Position numbers and translations under genes: made by a program. From a virus, in IMG/VR virus record IMGVR_UViG_3300020203_000040, positions 1 to 39,293 of that record: a stretch of 39,293 nt of DNA. One strand, given 5' to 3'. Below the pieces are notes generated by a model. That model was given only the letters and a program-made list of their open reading frames with translations, was not told the origin of the DNA and ran no database searches. Shown one piece after another: positions 1 to 27,886 of this stretch. Numbering within the stretch: the first letter of the stretch is position 1; every line of letters begins with the position of its first letter.

Positions 1-1
1 A

Positions 2-490
2 AAAAGCTGGGAGTATTTTGGTAAGCAGCTTTTAAAGCAGTCCCGAGGAACCGCCCGTCGGCAGGTTGCCGCTTCTGCAACGACCCTGACGCGTTATTTG
101 CCGCTGCAACAGCACGCGTTCTGTATACTGGAGAAAGTGGGCTACAGCGCAGCAGAAGCGGCCATGCACGCAAAAATCCGGCTGCCCCCAGGCATGACCG
201 GAGAGACGCTACTCAAAAACGACCAAATAGCGCTTTTTATGGGCAAGCTGAGCGAAAGCTTCGTGTTGCGTAGGCAAAACGATATAGAGCCCCACCCGGG
301 TTGGCCGGAGTTGCAAAGGTGCAACTTAACGATAAAGCAAAGCGTTTTTTGCGCGCTCGTTGCAAAAGATGTCTGCATAAAGGATGCGGCCATTTTAGCT
401 GGATATTCGCGCCCGGGATCGCAGCTACTAATCCGGCAAAATCGCGCCATAATTGCAAACCTTAAACATTTAGAAAAATCAAACTTTTAA
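2..490 (+). CDS. Terminase-small-like HTH protein (5' end off the window)
   Basis: The reading frame is open from base 2 with no stop, so the start lies outside the left edge; the TTG at 98 is not a convincing start. The visible 162 residues contain two units that align without gaps: LPLQQHAFCILEKVGYSAAE, beginning at base 98, and LTIKQSVFCALVAKDVCIKD in the C-terminal third (L, Q, FC, L, then AA-x-x-A shared). The second unit ends DAAILAGYS, the form of the N-terminal HTH of small terminase subunits. A DNA-binding role in packaging or regulation is therefore inferred. A separate canonical small terminase lies at 2294. If the window is circular, the gene starts at 39259 and encodes about 174 residues behind the promoter at 39191. 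Confidence 0.6.
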   Translation, partial: KSWEYFGKQLLKQSRGTARRQVAASATTLTRYLPLQQHAFCILEKVGYSAAEAAMHAKIRLPPGMTGETLLKNDQIALFMGKLSESFVLRRQNDIEPHPGWPELQRCNLTIKQSVFCALVAKDVCIKDAAILAGYSRPGSQLLIRQNRAIIANLKHLEKSNF

Positions 491-494
491 GAAA

Positions 495-953
495 ATGAAA
501 AACAAATTCATCGTTTTCGTAATTTCGCTATTCGCCATAATGGCAACTGCGATTATCGGTGCTGCGCAAGCGCGTTTTGTGGACTCACCCAAAGCCGCTT
601 ATGCCACCGCACTGGAGGTGGATCAGGTCATCCACCTCCAGACGTACACGCCTGAACGGGGGGACGGTGTTATATATCCGACTATGAGCATTACCGTTAC
701 GGGCGACTACGGCGGCGACCTGTTCGTAAAAGTCGAAAACTTGCGCGTTAGCACAGCCGCAATTTGTGTCGAGCTTGCAGCCCTTCCCGAATATTGGCAG
801 ACGGAAGAAGTGGATGGCGGCGTTTTGGTGCGACCCAACAAAAATAAAAACCCCTCTACCGTTTTGCGGGTTTTGTGCAATCAGCTTAAAGGCGCTTTCG
901 GGGTGTATTTCACGCACGCGATGCTGAAAGACGCAATAAAAAATAAAAAATGA
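495..953 (+). CDS. Secreted protein of unknown function
   Basis: The 152-residue product starts with Lys-rich MKNK, a hydrophobic stretch (about residues 5-22) and an AQA site near residue 26, a good Sec signal peptide. The mature part is mixed beta-like sequence with three cysteines and a Lys/Asn-rich tail. The start ATG is 5 bases after the previous stop, and the stop overlaps the next ATG. I do not recognise the family. Its place between the lysis and packaging genes makes a periplasmic or envelope role possible, but this is inference. Its last 17 codons lie in the first unit of the tandem duplication that begins near 900, and a copy of them recurs at 1704-1757. Confidence 0.7.
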   Translation: MKNKFIVFVISLFAIMATAIIGAAQARFVDSPKAAYATALEVDQVIHLQTYTPERGDGVIYPTMSITVTGDYGGDLFVKVENLRVSTAAICVELAALPEYWQTEEVDGGVLVRPNKNKNPSTVLRVLCNQLKGAFGVYFTHAMLKDAIKNKK

Positions 954-1288
954 AAAAAGCAAAAGAACACGCTTCGGAACTATTAGCAGTTTACGCTGAA
1001 GCGATTAGGCAAGAAAATTGGGAGCTCTTCACGGAAAAAGTAACGGACGTATTCTGGGAAGTGGTATTAAATGAAGTTAAGGAAATGCAAAAGGCAAGAA
1101 ACATTTCGTTGGACACAGGTTTAATACCAATTTACAAATCGCAGCGTGAAAAATATGGCGTAATTTGTAAAATTGTGAACGGGGCACACGCCAATTTACT
1201 GGCGATTACCGATTTTGATGAGGTGGTGGAAGCTATTCACCCAAAAATTTATGAGTGGTATGCGTCGGCAATATTGCTGAAAAAATAA
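950..1288 (+). CDS. Hypothetical protein, duplicated copy 1
   Basis: A 112-residue, helix-rich, charged protein that starts MKKAKEHASELLAVYAEAIR and contains LIPIYKSQREKYGVICKIVN. I do not recognise the family. The start overlaps the stop of the secreted-protein gene by 4 bases (ATGA), indicating translational coupling. It is the first gene of unit 1 of the tandem duplication. The homologous part of the unit 2 protein (1755-2270) is about 80% identical by eye and has 8 extra residues after LDTG. No signal peptide or membrane segment is visible, so a cytoplasmic product is likely. Confidence 0.7.
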   Translation: MKKAKEHASELLAVYAEAIRQENWELFTEKVTDVFWEVVLNEVKEMQKARNISLDTGLIPIYKSQREKYGVICKIVNGAHANLLAITDFDEVVEAIHPKIYEWYASAILLKK

Positions 1289-1301
1289 AAAAAACACGCC
1301 C

Positions 1302-1634
1302 ATGAAAATCTGGAAATTCTGGAAATTCACGCTAAAAAAAGCGAGAACGCAACTGGTTAAAATGCCTGTAAAATCTAAAATACTGGATATTCAGTTGCAA
1401 GAGGGCGGGCTATCCATGTGGGTACTTGTCAGCCCCGAAACGGAAGAAACGGAGATTAAAATAAATAGGTTTGGGCCTGGGGAAGAAATTCCCGAAAATG
1501 TTTTGAAAGACGACTATCTTGCACCCGTTCAGGATGGTGAATATGTCTGGCACTTTTTCCGCGCGCCCGCTATAGTTTTCTCTCGCGGGATATTTTTCTA
1601 TAGCGGGCACGCGGAAAATGGGTTTGAAGATTAA
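1302..1634 (+). CDS. DUF7352-like small phage protein
   Basis: The 110-residue product has the pattern KILDIQLQEGG...MWVLVSPE...RFGPGEEI...YLAPVQ...YVWHFFR. This matches my memory of a small phage family annotated DUF7352, whose members share a short 'Q.G...MW.LVDPE...GTG..I......VWH.FE' signature; the function is unknown. The N terminus is a short repeat of WKFWKF encoded by two copies of tggaaattc. The last 5 residues (NGFED) and the tail length recur in the unit 2 protein, where the front of this gene has been deleted. It follows the previous stop by 13 bases. The family call is from recall and unverified. Confidence 0.6.
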   Translation: MKIWKFWKFTLKKARTQLVKMPVKSKILDIQLQEGGLSMWVLVSPETEETEIKINRFGPGEEIPENVLKDDYLAPVQDGEYVWHFFRAPAIVFSRGIFFYSGHAENGFED

Positions 1635-1653
1635 ATTAATTATTGTATTTTTG
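1623..1653 (+). promoter_or_regulatory. Bacteroidota-type promoter, duplicated copy
   Basis: TTTG at 1623-1626, 19 bases, then TATTTTTG at 1646-1653, an exact match to the Bacteroidota housekeeping promoter TTTG-N19-21-TAnnTTTG. The -33 box lies inside the last codons (GFED) of the upstream ORF. It is the duplicate of the promoter at 2259 and stands in front of the truncated terS copy, so it would now transcribe the unit 2 ORF as well. Confidence 0.65.
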
Positions 1654-1657
1654 CAGA

Positions 1658-1732
1658 ATGCTTTTAGACAGCCAAAAATTAACCGAGACGCTGAATGCCC
1701 TGTTGGGGTGTATTTCACGCACGCGGTGCTGA
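1658..1732 (+). pseudogene. Truncated terS 5' copy (24 codons)
   Basis: ATG at 1658 begins a copy of the small terminase gene: MLLDSQKLTETLNALLG is identical to the true protein for 17 residues. It then crosses the duplication junction into CISRTRC and a stop at 1730-1732. It keeps the promoter and start context of terS, so a short peptide may be made. It is most simply a remnant of the duplication; a regulatory or decoy role is speculation. Confidence 0.7.
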
Positions 1733-1754
1733 AAGACGCAATAAAAAACAAAAA

Positions 1755-2270
1755 ATGAAAAAAGCAAAAGAACACGCTTCGGAACTATTAGCAGTTTACG
1801 CCGAAGCGATTAGGCGAGATAATTGGGAGCTCTTCACGGAAAAAGTAACGGACGTATTCCGGGAAGTGGCAGTAAATGAAGTGCAGGAAATGCAAAAGGC
1901 AAGAAACATTTCGTTGGACACAGGTACAGCATATAACATGCGCACCATTTTAATGCCAATTTACAAATCGCAGCGCGTAAAATATGGCGTAATTTGTAAA
2001 ATCGTGAACGGGGCACACGCCAATTCATTGGCGGTTGAAGATTTCGATAAGGTGGTGAAAGCGGTTCACCCAAAAATTTATGATTGGTATGCGTCGGACA
2101 TTTTGGAGCTCGGAAAACCAGAACTTGAAAAATGTACGTGGTCTGCGCAAAACGGGGTTGTAGATTCAGGCGACGAAGTTGTCTGGCGCTTTTTGCGCGT
2201 GCCAACCATAGAAAAATATCCGGCGATAGTAAAATATAGCTGGTACGCGCAAAACGGGTTTGAAGATTAA
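1755..2270 (+). CDS. Fused hypothetical protein, duplicated copy 2
   Basis: The 171-residue protein joins the full-length relative of the 950-1288 product (MKKAKEHASELLAVYAEAIR... to WYASDILE) to the C-terminal part of the 1302-1634 product (VVWRFLR...WYAQNGFED). The junction contains a partial repeat of its own (WSAQNG and WYAQNG). ATG at 1755 is chosen because it aligns with the copy 1 start; the in-frame ATG at 1695 belongs to the duplicated terS fragment. The front of the DUF7352-like domain is missing, so that part is probably non-functional. The fusion protein is intact and its reading frame preserved, which argues for some retained use. Confidence 0.65.
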   Translation: MKKAKEHASELLAVYAEAIRRDNWELFTEKVTDVFREVAVNEVQEMQKARNISLDTGTAYNMRTILMPIYKSQRVKYGVICKIVNGAHANSLAVEDFDKVVKAVHPKIYDWYASDILELGKPELEKCTWSAQNGVVDSGDEVVWRFLRVPTIEKYPAIVKYSWYAQNGFED

Positions 2271-2289
2271 ATTAATTATTGTATTTTTG
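2259..2289 (+). promoter_or_regulatory. terS promoter, almost leaderless
   Basis: TTTG (2259-2262), 19-base spacer, TATTTTTG (2282-2289): an exact Bacteroidota consensus promoter. The terS ATG begins at 2294, only 4 bases after the -7 element. Bacteroidota transcripts normally start about 4-8 bases after this element, so the mRNA would begin at or within a few bases of the ATG. Confidence 0.7.
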
Positions 2290-2293
2290 CAGA

Positions 2294-2890
2294 ATGCTTT
2301 TAGACAGCCAAAAATTAACCGAGACGCTGAATGCCCTGTTGGGGTACGAGGTACGGTTTTGCCGCGAATTAATGGTGGATTTTAAGCCTTTGCAAGCGCT
2401 TGCCCGGGCGCGCGTAAACGGCGGTAAAGGGAAAGCTGCTAAAGATACGCTCGTTTTAACTATATTAAACAAACCCCAGGCACAAACATACATCGCGCAT
2501 CTAAAAGCCGAAATGGAGCTGCAAACCGGCGTAACCCCAGAGCGGATATTAGACGAAGTTCGTATTATAGCGTTCCAAAATGTCCGCGATATATTAAAAA
2601 CGGAGGGGCAAAACGTTGTAATGCGCGATCTGGAAGATATGGTAAATACCGGCCAAATTAGGAAAATAAAAATTAGCAAAATTAAAACCGCAGACGGCGA
2701 AGACACGGCGGGGCAGATAATAGAGATCGAGTGTTACGACAAGCTTAAAGCGTTAGAATTGTTAGGAAAACAGGAAGGTCTGTTTATAAAGCGTGTAGAC
2801 GTTACTACAAACGCAAAAGAAATAGTAACGAGTAACGTGCAAAATTTAATTATTAACTACCGTAAAGCGGGTGAACCGTTAGCGGACTAA
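2294..2890 (+). CDS. terS: Terminase small subunit (Terminase_2 family)
   Basis: The 198-residue protein binds phage DNA and guides the large subunit in genome packaging. Family signs are the N-terminal HTH region, TPERILDEVRIIAF-QNVRDIL near the middle, the RDLEDM stretch, and the C-terminal pattern IIEIECYDKLKALELLGK, then GLF; together these are typical of Terminase_2 proteins. The start is ATG 2294; the in-frame TTG at 2279 overlaps the -7 promoter element. Two genes downstream comes the large subunit. The first 17 codons with the promoter are duplicated at 1658. Confidence 0.9.
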   Translation: MLLDSQKLTETLNALLGYEVRFCRELMVDFKPLQALARARVNGGKGKAAKDTLVLTILNKPQAQTYIAHLKAEMELQTGVTPERILDEVRIIAFQNVRDILKTEGQNVVMRDLEDMVNTGQIRKIKISKIKTADGEDTAGQIIEIECYDKLKALELLGKQEGLFIKRVDVTTNAKEIVTSNVQNLIINYRKAGEPLAD

Positions 2891-3180: not shown

Positions 3181-4683
3181 ATGAAATTCAGTAAGCCGCA
3201 AGAATATATTTTAACTTCTACGCAGCCTGTAAATTTGTTTTTAGCGGGCGTGGGTAGCGGCAAAACGCATTTAGGCGGCGCGCTGAGCGGGCATTTTGTT
3301 ACCGCTTTTCCGGAAGCTTTCGGCTTTGTTGGCGCAAATACTTACAACCAATTAACCACTTCGACGCTTTATAGAATGCGCGAAGTATGGCAAATTTTAT
3401 ATGGCTGGAAGGAAGATATAGATTATACCGTTAATAAAAAACCGCCAAAATATTTTAATTTAGAGCACCATAATTTCGACGACTATAACGGTATAATATC
3501 GTTCCGGTCGGGCGCTATAATATTTAAAGGTAGCTTAGACAACTCTAAAGCGCACGACGGAAAAGAGTTTAGTTGGGCTATATTAGACGAAACAAAAGAT
3601 AGCAGGGAGGAGGACGTAAAAGATACGATTATCACCCGACTCCGCCGACCCGGTATTTATGTAGATGCGTATGGACAATTAACCTCGCAGCGTTACGGCG
3701 ATTTAGGCGAATATAATAGAGGGTTTAACCCGTTATATATTTTAACTTCGCCGGCAAAAGTCCGCTGGATAAATGAATGGTTCGATCTTCACAACCATTT
3801 TCCGGAAATAAACAATTTAATATATAACGAAGGCGAATTTTTTATAAAAGAGTTTAACGATAAATGTGTTGTAATTAGCTCGACTTACCATAATGCCGAA
3901 AACCTACCGAAAGACTATATTAATACGATAAAAAATAACAATAGCATAGAAGGCGCTAAAAAGCTAATTTTTGCAAATCCTTTCGTTAAAGCGGGGGGTG
4001 AATTTTACAGCAGCTTTGACCGGTTAAAACACGTAGGCACGGTGGATTTCGACGAAAACCTACCGATACATATAAGTTTCGACCAAAATGTTGTGCCGTA
4101 TATAACTGCTACGCTATACCAAGTTACAGATTTGCCCAGCGGCAAAAAGCTGTTTGGGCAATTCGACGAATTTTGTTTAGAAAATCCGCAGAATAAAACC
4201 GAGCGGCTTTGTTACGAAATAATTCGTAAATATGGCAGTCGTATTAAAGGGCTATTTTATTACGGCGATCCGTCAGGGCGGCACGGCGATACGCGGGGTT
4301 TAGAACACGACTACAAAATAGTTAAAAGGGTTTTTAGAAAATACCTGAACAATAATAGCGAACGCGTACCGTATAAACATCCTTCCGTAATTAATCGTAA
4401 GGACTTTATAAACAACGCTTTAGAAGGCGTTTACGATATACAAGTACTTATAGATAACCGCTGCCGCAGGTCGGTAGAAGATTTCGAGTTTCTGAAAGAG
4501 GACATTAACGGGAAAAAGAAAAAAGAGCGGGTAACCAATAAAGACAACGGAACTACCTACGAGCCGTACGGGCACACGTCGGATAGTTTCGACTATATAT
4601 TTTGCGAAGTATTTAAGCCTTTATTTACCCGGCATTTTAAAAGTATTTTAATTATATTTGCGCTATGGATAGGGAACAATTAA
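3181..4683 (+). CDS. terL: Terminase large subunit
   Basis: A 500-residue ATP-driven packaging motor and nuclease. The Walker A motif GVGSGKT is at residues 23-29, the Walker B ILDE at about 134-137, and the C-terminal RNase H-like nuclease begins near YYGDPSG (Asp363), a typical first catalytic acid of the terminase_6 type. ATG 3181 gives a protein starting MKFSKPQEYIL directly before the ATPase; upstream TTG 3127 would place the start inside the hairpin leader. The 3' end overlaps the portal gene by 19 bases. Expression may be modulated by the hairpins at 3112-3162. Confidence 0.92.
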   Translation: MKFSKPQEYILTSTQPVNLFLAGVGSGKTHLGGALSGHFVTAFPEAFGFVGANTYNQLTTSTLYRMREVWQILYGWKEDIDYTVNKKPPKYFNLEHHNFDDYNGIISFRSGAIIFKGSLDNSKAHDGKEFSWAILDETKDSREEDVKDTIITRLRRPGIYVDAYGQLTSQRYGDLGEYNRGFNPLYILTSPAKVRWINEWFDLHNHFPEINNLIYNEGEFFIKEFNDKCVVISSTYHNAENLPKDYINTIKNNNSIEGAKKLIFANPFVKAGGEFYSSFDRLKHVGTVDFDENLPIHISFDQNVVPYITATLYQVTDLPSGKKLFGQFDEFCLENPQNKTERLCYEIIRKYGSRIKGLFYYGDPSGRHGDTRGLEHDYKIVKRVFRKYLNNNSERVPYKHPSVINRKDFINNALEGVYDIQVLIDNRCRRSVEDFEFLKEDINGKKKKERVTNKDNGTTYEPYGHTSDSFDYIFCEVFKPLFTRHFKSILIIFALWIGNN

Positions 4684-6524
4684 TAAACCGCCTTTTTCAG
4701 GTCGTCGCATTTGACCTGCGACATAAGCACTACGCGTATACGGTAGATAAAGCGACTTTGTACACGCAATTAGTTGCGGGCAAAGACATAGCCAAACTAC
4801 TAAAACAGTTTGTACGCCGGGAAGATACGGCCGAATTTGCGCAGCGCGTTAACCTAACGCAGCACATTACGGTCGGAGTTTGTAAAAATCTGTTGGACAT
4901 TTTCTTTAAAATTCCGAGGTCTAATGCCGCACGAAAAACGTTAACCTATACCGGCGAAAATGCGGAAAACTTAAAACGCGAATTAGTAGACGTTTTAGGG
5001 AATTTTTGGGGTGACGCCTCGTACGATGCTTATATATATGCCCGCTATATAGAGCTAAACGCCACAGACCCAAACAGTTTTGTGGTATTCGAGTGGCAGG
5101 CATTTGACAATACGGTAGAACTTTTACAGCCTTATCCTTTCGAGGTTTCCAGCCGTGCGGCGGTTGATTATACCTACGAAAACAATACGCTACAGTATTT
5201 AATTGTCGAACAATCGCATTTATACGCCACGGATAATATGATGGCGGATAATATTCCGGTTTTGCGTCGCCCCACTGACGGTAAAACGGAAGGGAAAAAA
5301 TACACGGCATACGGAAAAAATGAAACTTTCCAGTTGCTACAAATCGCCGAAAACGACGTATCTAACGCGCTGCCGGTGGACGGTGGCGTAATAAAAACGG
5401 TTTATAAAGGCGCGATAATAAACGCTGTAAAGCTTAACGGCAAAGTGTTTCAGTTTCTCGAATCGGCGGCGCCGCACAATTTAGGCCACGTTCCGGCTTT
5501 TCGCGTGGGCTACTGCCGGGATTTGGCTACGAACGGCGAAACTATGGTTAGCATGTTATATGCTGTTGAAGCGCATCTATTAAAAACAATAAAAGCGAAT
5601 AGCGAATTTGATTTAGTCGCAGCGCTTTTAGCGTTCCCCCAGGTCGTAAAAATGAGTGAAAAGTGTGACGACGAAAGCTGCTATAAAGGTAGACATTCGA
5701 CGGATGGGAGCCTTTGCGGTACATGTTTAGGGACGGGGTTTAAAAAGACGGCATTTAGCGCTCAGGATGCAATTGTTTTAGAACTGCCGGAAAACCGGGA
5801 AAATGCGATAAAAATAACCGATGTTATTACGTACGTTTACCCCCCCGTGGAGATCGTAAAATGGCAGGAGGAATATATAGAGCGACTTACGCAAAAGTGT
5901 AAGCAAATTATGTTTAATTCGGATGTTTTTTCCCGGCAGGAAATAGCCGACACGGCGACGGGCAAAAACTTAGATATGCAAAACGTATACGATACTTTAT
6001 ACCCATTTTCGGAAGCAATAGCATATACCTGGGTATTTGGTGTTACGACAATTGCGAAATTAATAGATCGCGCGGATAATTTAGTGGTAGGGTTTAAATT
6101 CGACAAAGATTTAAAATTAAAGTCTTTGGAAGATTTAATGTTCGATTTGTCGGTAGCGGTTAACCTAAATAACCCCACGTTAACTGCGCATTTTAACGAC
6201 GACGTTGCGGGTATTATATACCACGACAGGCCAATAGAATTACTACGTTACCAAACGCAACAATTATATAACCCATTTTCCGGGAAAACGCAATCGGAAA
6301 TATTGTTGCTAATGGCGTCGGCATTCGTGCAAAATACCGATAAAATTTTGTACGCTAATTACGGCAGTATTTTCGACTTGTTGGAATTAGATTACGCGGG
6401 AAAACAGCAAAATTTTTACCTGCTACCGCGTGATAAGCAAAGACAAGCGCTTTACGCAAAAGTGGCGGAAATAAAGGCGGAAATAGACGCCGAAACGCCC
6501 GAGCCGGTGTTAGCATTAGAGTAA
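4665..6524 (+). CDS. Portal protein
   Basis: The 619-residue product lies between the large terminase and a MuF-like head protein, the standard portal position, and has the usual length of SPP1/phi29-like portals with long insertions. It forms the dodecameric ring of the capsid vertex through which DNA passes. The N-terminal part is helical; the central region includes an unusual cysteine cluster, C334-x4-C339-x11-C351-x2-C354, followed by GTGFKKTA, which looks like a zinc-binding loop. The ATG lies within the end of terL. The assignment relies on synteny, length and partial sequence character. Confidence 0.82.
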   Translation: MDREQLINRLFQVVAFDLRHKHYAYTVDKATLYTQLVAGKDIAKLLKQFVRREDTAEFAQRVNLTQHITVGVCKNLLDIFFKIPRSNAARKTLTYTGENAENLKRELVDVLGNFWGDASYDAYIYARYIELNATDPNSFVVFEWQAFDNTVELLQPYPFEVSSRAAVDYTYENNTLQYLIVEQSHLYATDNMMADNIPVLRRPTDGKTEGKKYTAYGKNETFQLLQIAENDVSNALPVDGGVIKTVYKGAIINAVKLNGKVFQFLESAAPHNLGHVPAFRVGYCRDLATNGETMVSMLYAVEAHLLKTIKANSEFDLVAALLAFPQVVKMSEKCDDESCYKGRHSTDGSLCGTCLGTGFKKTAFSAQDAIVLELPENRENAIKITDVITYVYPPVEIVKWQEEYIERLTQKCKQIMFNSDVFSRQEIADTATGKNLDMQNVYDTLYPFSEAIAYTWVFGVTTIAKLIDRADNLVVGFKFDKDLKLKSLEDLMFDLSVAVNLNNPTLTAHFNDDVAGIIYHDRPIELLRYQTQQLYNPFSGKTQSEILLLMASAFVQNTDKILYANYGSIFDLLELDYAGKQQNFYLLPRDKQRQALYAKVAEIKAEIDAETPEPVLALE

Positions 6525-27316: not shown

Positions 27317-27886
27317 ATGAAACAGATAATACTTATTTTGGGGGCATTTATTTTAGGTTTGCTTATACAAAAAAGCTGCAACCGTAACGGCGTTACCGTT
27401 AAAACGGAAACCGTAATTAAAACCGATACCGTTTTAACGGTAAAACGTGACACTGTTTGGCAAAAAGAAATAGTACAATTACCTACAAATAAAACAGCCC
27501 AAAAACCCGATACAGTATATTTAGCCGACAGTAGCACACAATTAGTTTATACGGAAACGTCGGAAGATTCTGCAATTATAATAGGTTTTTCAGCATACGC
27601 TAAAAATGCGTTGGATTCTATACGCATTTGGTATTTATTAAAACAACCGAGAATTATAAACAACACTTTTACTAAAGAGGTTATTACCGAACGAACGATT
27701 ACAAACACGGTATATAAATCGGGCTTTTATGTTGGCGGCGGTGCGAGCTATTCAGGAGACAAAAGTTTAGATTTTAACGGTAGTGTGTTGCACACAACAA
27801 AAAAAGGTGTAGCTTTTCAGTATAGTTACGGAGTTTTGCAAAAAACGCACGCTGTAACAATGTTTTACCGTTTAACACCGAAGTGA
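27317..27886 (+). CDS. Membrane-anchored, beta-C-terminal protein (spanin-like, DUF6808-like)
   Basis: A 189-residue protein with one N-terminal membrane anchor (MKQIILILGAFILGLLIQKS), an extended Thr/Val/Lys-rich region with a repeated 'TVIKTDTVLTVKRDTV' pattern, and a C-terminal beta part (GFYVGGGASYSGDK, FQYSYGVLQKTHAV, MFYRL) that looks like the end of an outer-membrane strand. A protein spanning the periplasm from inner anchor to outer membrane would suit a unimolecular spanin acting in the last step of lysis. The resemblance to DUF6808 of Bacteroidota phages is from memory. Role inferred. Confidence 0.5.
   Translation: MKQIILILGAFILGLLIQKSCNRNGVTVKTETVIKTDTVLTVKRDTVWQKEIVQLPTNKTAQKPDTVYLADSSTQLVYTETSEDSAIIIGFSAYAKNALDSIRIWYLLKQPRIINNTFTKEVITERTITNTVYKSGFYVGGGASYSGDKSLDFNGSVLHTTKKGVAFQYSYGVLQKTHAVTMFYRLTPK

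Follow-up and report, generated by a model that had tools for sequence, protein, structure and literature searches.

Comparison of the window (the whole stretch of DNA analysed, 39,293 bases, IMG/VR virus record IMGVR_UViG_3300020203_000040) with itself revealed a single large direct duplication in front of terS, the gene for the terminase small subunit. The locus is an ordinary head-to-tail duplication made by known mutation processes, and no new system. It probably arose by duplication in place at the short word GGGGT, after which the copies would have diverged partly by template switches. The features of the locus and of the neighbouring genes were as follows.

495–953, forward strand: gene for a 152-aa protein that seems by eye to carry a signal peptide
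900–1704, forward strand: copy 1 of the tandem unit, 805 bp, beginning with GGGGT
950–1288, forward strand: gene A, copy 1 (A1, 112 aa), of an orphan family
1302–1634, forward strand: gene B (110 aa), DUF7352 (PF24043, 1.4e-14; PHROG 3848) plus a 22-aa tail
1555–1618, no strand: hairpin 1, with 21-nt arms (95% complementary) and a 22-nt loop
1623–1653, forward strand: promoter-like site P1 (TTTG, 19 nt, TATTTTTG), of the Bacteroidota -33/-7 type
1658–1732, forward strand: terS stub, 17 terS codons followed by 7 foreign codons and a stop
1705–2340, forward strand: copy 2 of the tandem unit, 636 bp, with the closing GGGGT at 2341–2345
1755–2270, forward strand: gene A, copy 2 (A2, 171 aa), fused in frame to the tail of gene B
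1925–1948, forward strand: 24-bp insertion in A2
2129–2166, forward strand: extra piece of the gene B tail, 38 nt, 82% identical to 2231–2268, located where the DUF7352 body is missing
2191–2254, no strand: hairpin 2, paralogous to hairpin 1 but with its loop in inverted orientation
2259–2289, forward strand: promoter-like site P2, identical to P1
2294–2890, forward strand: terS (Terminase_2, PF03592, 9.8e-13)
3181–4683: the large terminase gene (TerL), downstream of terS
4665–6524: portal-like gene, named only from its position after terL
5544–5567, reverse strand: likely template of the 24-bp insertion, within the portal-like gene

The two copies were adjacent and in the same orientation. 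In the self-comparison, 889–1276 matched 1694–2105 at 86% identity (E 2e-143) and 1544–1709 matched 2180–2345, also at 86% (E 2e-49). The first-pass annotation had proposed a tandem duplication before terS with units at 900–1703 and 1704–2344; the duplication proved to be real, and these borders were right to within 1–4 bases. The microhomology that it had placed at the junction was found as well: GGGGT occurred at 900–904, at 1705–1709 (the junction) and at 2341–2345, thus at both ends of the unit and between the copies. By our own estimate, a microhomology of at least 5 bases is expected at about 0.5% of random tandem junctions.

The left end of the unit consisted of the last bases of the gene for the 152-aa secreted-type protein (900–953), which recurred at 1705–1758. 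This protein had no significant family match in Pfam, PHROGs or NCBIfam. As had been listed earlier, the 3' end of this gene, gene A, the promoter-like site and the terS start were all present twice, but the second ORF of the block (gene B) was intact only in copy 1. Gene B scored 54.5 bits against PF24043 (curated cut-off 27) and was the only DUF7352 match in the window. To our knowledge, DUF7352 is a family without a known function. The 22-aa C-terminal tail of gene B held most of hairpin 1. In copy 2 the DUF7352 body was lost and gene A was joined in frame to the tail of gene B; the 171-aa product had no Pfam match, and so falls outside DUF7352.

Members of the gene A family were found in the window phage and in two other viral contigs only (L008 and L009), which carried single-copy relatives with 64–66% identity in different gene surroundings. 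A search of phage records returned no relatives of gene A. There was no match worth reporting in Pfam, PHROGs, PDB or NCBIfam, and PADLOC returned no match to a known defence protein. The AlphaFold model of gene A had a mean pLDDT of 61, too low for a fold search.

The Terminase_2 match just upstream of TerL identified the gene at 2294–2890 as a member of the terS family. This gene was intact only after copy 2, and copy 1 retained the 17-codon stub; under the favoured reading terS would have survived because the right side of the unit preserved the whole of its 5' end. Among related phages the ground before terS was variable, and this region therefore looks like an accessory slot.

Site P1 preceded A2, and site P2 preceded terS. 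The Bacteroidota -33/-7 promoter consensus and its spacing were taken from Flavobacterium johnsoniae (PMC6847099). The spacing of P2 was the same as in that species and placed the predicted +1 at the first base of the terS start codon (the A of ATG), so that a leaderless terS message is predicted. Both sites are putative promoters, and their -33/-7 type suggests that the host of the window phage belongs to the Bacteroidota. The present effect of the duplication is likely to be the possession of two A variants and two identical promoters, with a modest change in dosage presumed.

Four other viral contigs aligned without gaps over the region, with identities of 99.47% (L004), 99.70% (L005), 99.87% (L006) and 99.23% (L007). 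They came from IMG datasets 3300020057, 3300020180, 3300020219 and 3300021515, whose samples are possibly related. A scan of IMG/VR with the P1/P2 promoter sequence returned exactly these four other contigs, each with two copies 636 bp apart. The sister contigs differed by SNPs and thus did not represent one assembly repeated. False repeats can occur in metagenomic contigs, but here the copies differed by about 12% and by rearrangements, and the same ungapped structure was present in five SNP-distinct contigs from separate IMG datasets. An artefact of assembly or chimera formation is practically negligible as an explanation, and assembly error was rejected, as the first-pass annotation had argued.

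Several other observations were made on the upstream side of the locus. Within 43–845 of the window, the SNPs between sister strains formed clusters and often fell on every third base, which hints at recombination with other alleles. In L006, which is of the same phage species, the part upstream of the window contained six copies of a repeat of about 64 nt with a GGTGG/CCACC hairpin (L006:768–3548), none of which occurred in the window; most of these repeats had their end no more than about 10 nt from an ORF start, and the repeat looks like a leader or promoter that the small upstream genes have in common. A stretch of about 400 bp (L006:3905–4307) was dense in inverted and short direct repeats and might serve as an origin of replication or for control. 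It lay just before a gene for a 196-aa protein, the 3' part of which opens the window (1–490; L006:4362–4952). This protein is encoded upstream of the real terS, and its C-terminal part looks, by eye, like a small-terminase helix-turn-helix.

Copy 1 and copy 2 were 94–95% identical in their leftmost 222 bp and 88% identical across the latter half of gene A. Identity was 66% at the hairpin, and the final 89 bp (1620–1708 and 2256–2344) matched completely, compared with a divergence of 5–12% elsewhere. Under steady drift of one copy, the chance of such an 89-base identity was about 0.1–10%, depending on the rate. Both A frames were open. Comparison of A1 with A2 gave Ka 0.073, Ks 0.145 and Ka/Ks 0.50, while the Ka/Ks between the two single-copy relatives (L008 and L009) was 0.07, which points to relaxed constraint on the A copies; to judge from these ratios, selection on gene A is relaxed, yet present. 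Unique changes numbered 12–14 in A2 and 6–7 in A1 (14 and 6, respectively, against L008). Each copy differed between sister strains by 0–4 bases. Set against a Ks of about 0.15 between the copies, these small differences support the view that the copies parted long before the sampled strains did; this date belongs to the split and does not by itself prove the age of the tandem. The earlier description of the duplication as old is right in this sense. Its description as maintained stands for the open A frames and a Ka/Ks of about 0.5, but has to be qualified by the relaxed constraint and by the loss of the DUF7352 body from copy 2. The strain SNPs were also examined for gene conversion between the copies and were too few to decide.

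The first-pass annotation had attributed the differences between the copies to substitutions and separate indels. Both occurred, but the main differences were an inversion of the hairpin loop, an insertion matching the portal-like gene in inverted orientation, and a tail repeat. Hairpin 1 was the strongest inverted repeat in the window (z -6.9 / -8.9); the second strongest was at 27393–27443, with 15-nt arms and a 21-nt loop. Over the whole 64 bp, hairpin 1 matched hairpin 2 at 52/64 positions when inverted and at 42/64 when compared directly. For the 24-nt loop the values were 20/24 inverted and 10/24 direct, and a match of 20 was reached by none of 200,000 shuffles; the spacer of the inverted repeat matched its homologue better inverted than direct. 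Flipping the loop of copy 1 in silico turned APAIVFSRGIFFYSGHAENGFED into APAIEKYPARENYSGHAENGFED, and the counterpart in copy 2 was VPTIEKYPAIVKYSWYAQNGFED. The flipped loop encoded IEKYPA, which is also what copy 2 reads, so the inversion was visible at the protein level too. Both copies retained a hairpin that can fold, and at least one of the changes in it was two-sided. To judge from these matches, the low identity of the hairpin patch is explained by inversion, and the inversion fits template-switch mutagenesis as its presumed cause. Template switching by polymerases has been described to invert spacers and homogenise arms at inverted repeats in coding DNA (PMC8604942, according to which Ripley first proposed the idea in 1982, in bacteriophages), and loop inversion by the same process has been described in RNA genes (PMC8794818).

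The 24-bp insertion of A2 was missing from A1, L008 and L009 and is therefore derived in copy 2. It matched the reverse complement of 5544–5567 at 21/24 positions, and the match filled the insertion and ended at its borders. Among 1,500 other 24-mers of the window used as controls, the best off-site match was 19/24. The segment in the portal-like gene was identical in L004, L006 and L007. The insertion fits a template switch with the portal-like gene, again as the presumed cause, and the distance between the two (3.6 kb) would make it longer-range than typical template-switch cases. For the tail repeat at 2129–2166, no source was found other than copy 2's own tail.

Under the reading that we favour, illegitimate recombination at the 5-bp GGGGT would have doubled about 800 bp before terS in an ancestor of this presumed Bacteroidota phage species. 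The duplicated unit would have comprised the end of the secreted-protein gene, gene A, the DUF7352 gene, the hairpin, the promoter and the first 17 terS codons. The copies would then have diverged under relaxed selection, in part through template-switch errors: the hairpin loop would have been inverted in one copy, and the portal-like gene would have served, in inverted orientation, as the template for the 24 bp of A2. Once the DUF7352 body had gone from copy 2 and the partial tail repeat had been added, A2 would have been fused to the tail of gene B. The 89 identical bases over a dead stub and a promoter argue against simple drift in place; a later gene conversion, or a different origin, may have to be invoked to explain them.

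One such origin is illegitimate recombination at GGGGT between two related phages that had already diverged, in which case the divergence of the copies would not date the event. A functional promoter and terS start in both parents would account for the 89 identical bases beside 5–12% divergence, the clustered SNPs of the sister strains point to frequent recombination, and the stub of L007 carried three mild changes that made it look like an allele rather than a decaying remnant. But neither parent turned up in single-copy form in IMG/VR, among phage records or beside related terminases, and both the relaxed Ka/Ks and the larger number of changes in A2 are better explained by divergence that followed a duplication; we consider this origin rather unlikely. 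With terS, terL, A, B, the secreted protein and the promoter DNA as bait, the same search (IMG/VR, phage records and the neighbourhoods of related terminases) yielded no single-copy close relative, and the phage records held no DNA relatives of the region. The terminase relatives (41–64% TerL identity) had neither gene A nor DUF7352 near their terminases, and several of their contigs began too late to tell; these relatives therefore do not polarise the event.

The cos or pac sites of phages are often situated before terS, and the hairpin could have a working role, an unsupported possibility. Together with the DNA around it, the hairpin might be an element for packaging, replication or regulation, the duplication having been kept because it doubled that site. 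The hairpin is the strongest of the window, is placed before terS, folds in both copies and has at least one two-sided change, and P1 and P2 are identical. Against this, template switching preserves hairpins without any selection by homogenising their arms (PMC8604942, PMC8794818), the related phages that were examined had no comparable hairpin immediately in front of their terminases, Rfam gave no match, and exact promoter matches in the window (4, compared with 1.5 expected) were only slightly above chance. Retention for the sake of such a site is improbable. More improbable still is a working element that flips repeatedly before terS, with opposite loop orientations kept and packaging or terS expression altered by them. 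Among the related phages, no outgroup carrying this hairpin was found.

With duplication in place at GGGGT as the preferred reading, the locus is a concise natural example of how a phage locus evolves: a microhomology duplication came first, and then apparent template switches, each of which rewrote protein sequence in one step. In an alignment of paralogues, a short patch of high divergence may conceal an inversion, and not fast point mutation or selection.

The locus resembles microhomology-mediated tandem duplications in its head-to-tail arrangement, in the short word shared by its borders, and in having an intact gene on one side and a truncated gene on the other. It differs from them in that the copies were strongly diverged and rearranged and the single-copy ancestor was not found. 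As in spacer inversion by template switching, arms flanked a reverse-complement spacer in coding DNA and several residues were changed together. The reported cases are 2–5 bp substitutions in yeast spacers and rRNA loops of mostly 4 and up to 8 nt (PMC8604942, PMC8794818), whereas the loop in the window was longer (22–24 nt) and its inversion was seen between paralogues. Compared with the DUF7352 family (PHROG 3848), gene B was well over the Pfam cut-off and had an extra tail bearing the hairpin, and in copy 2 only this tail was present, fused to gene A.
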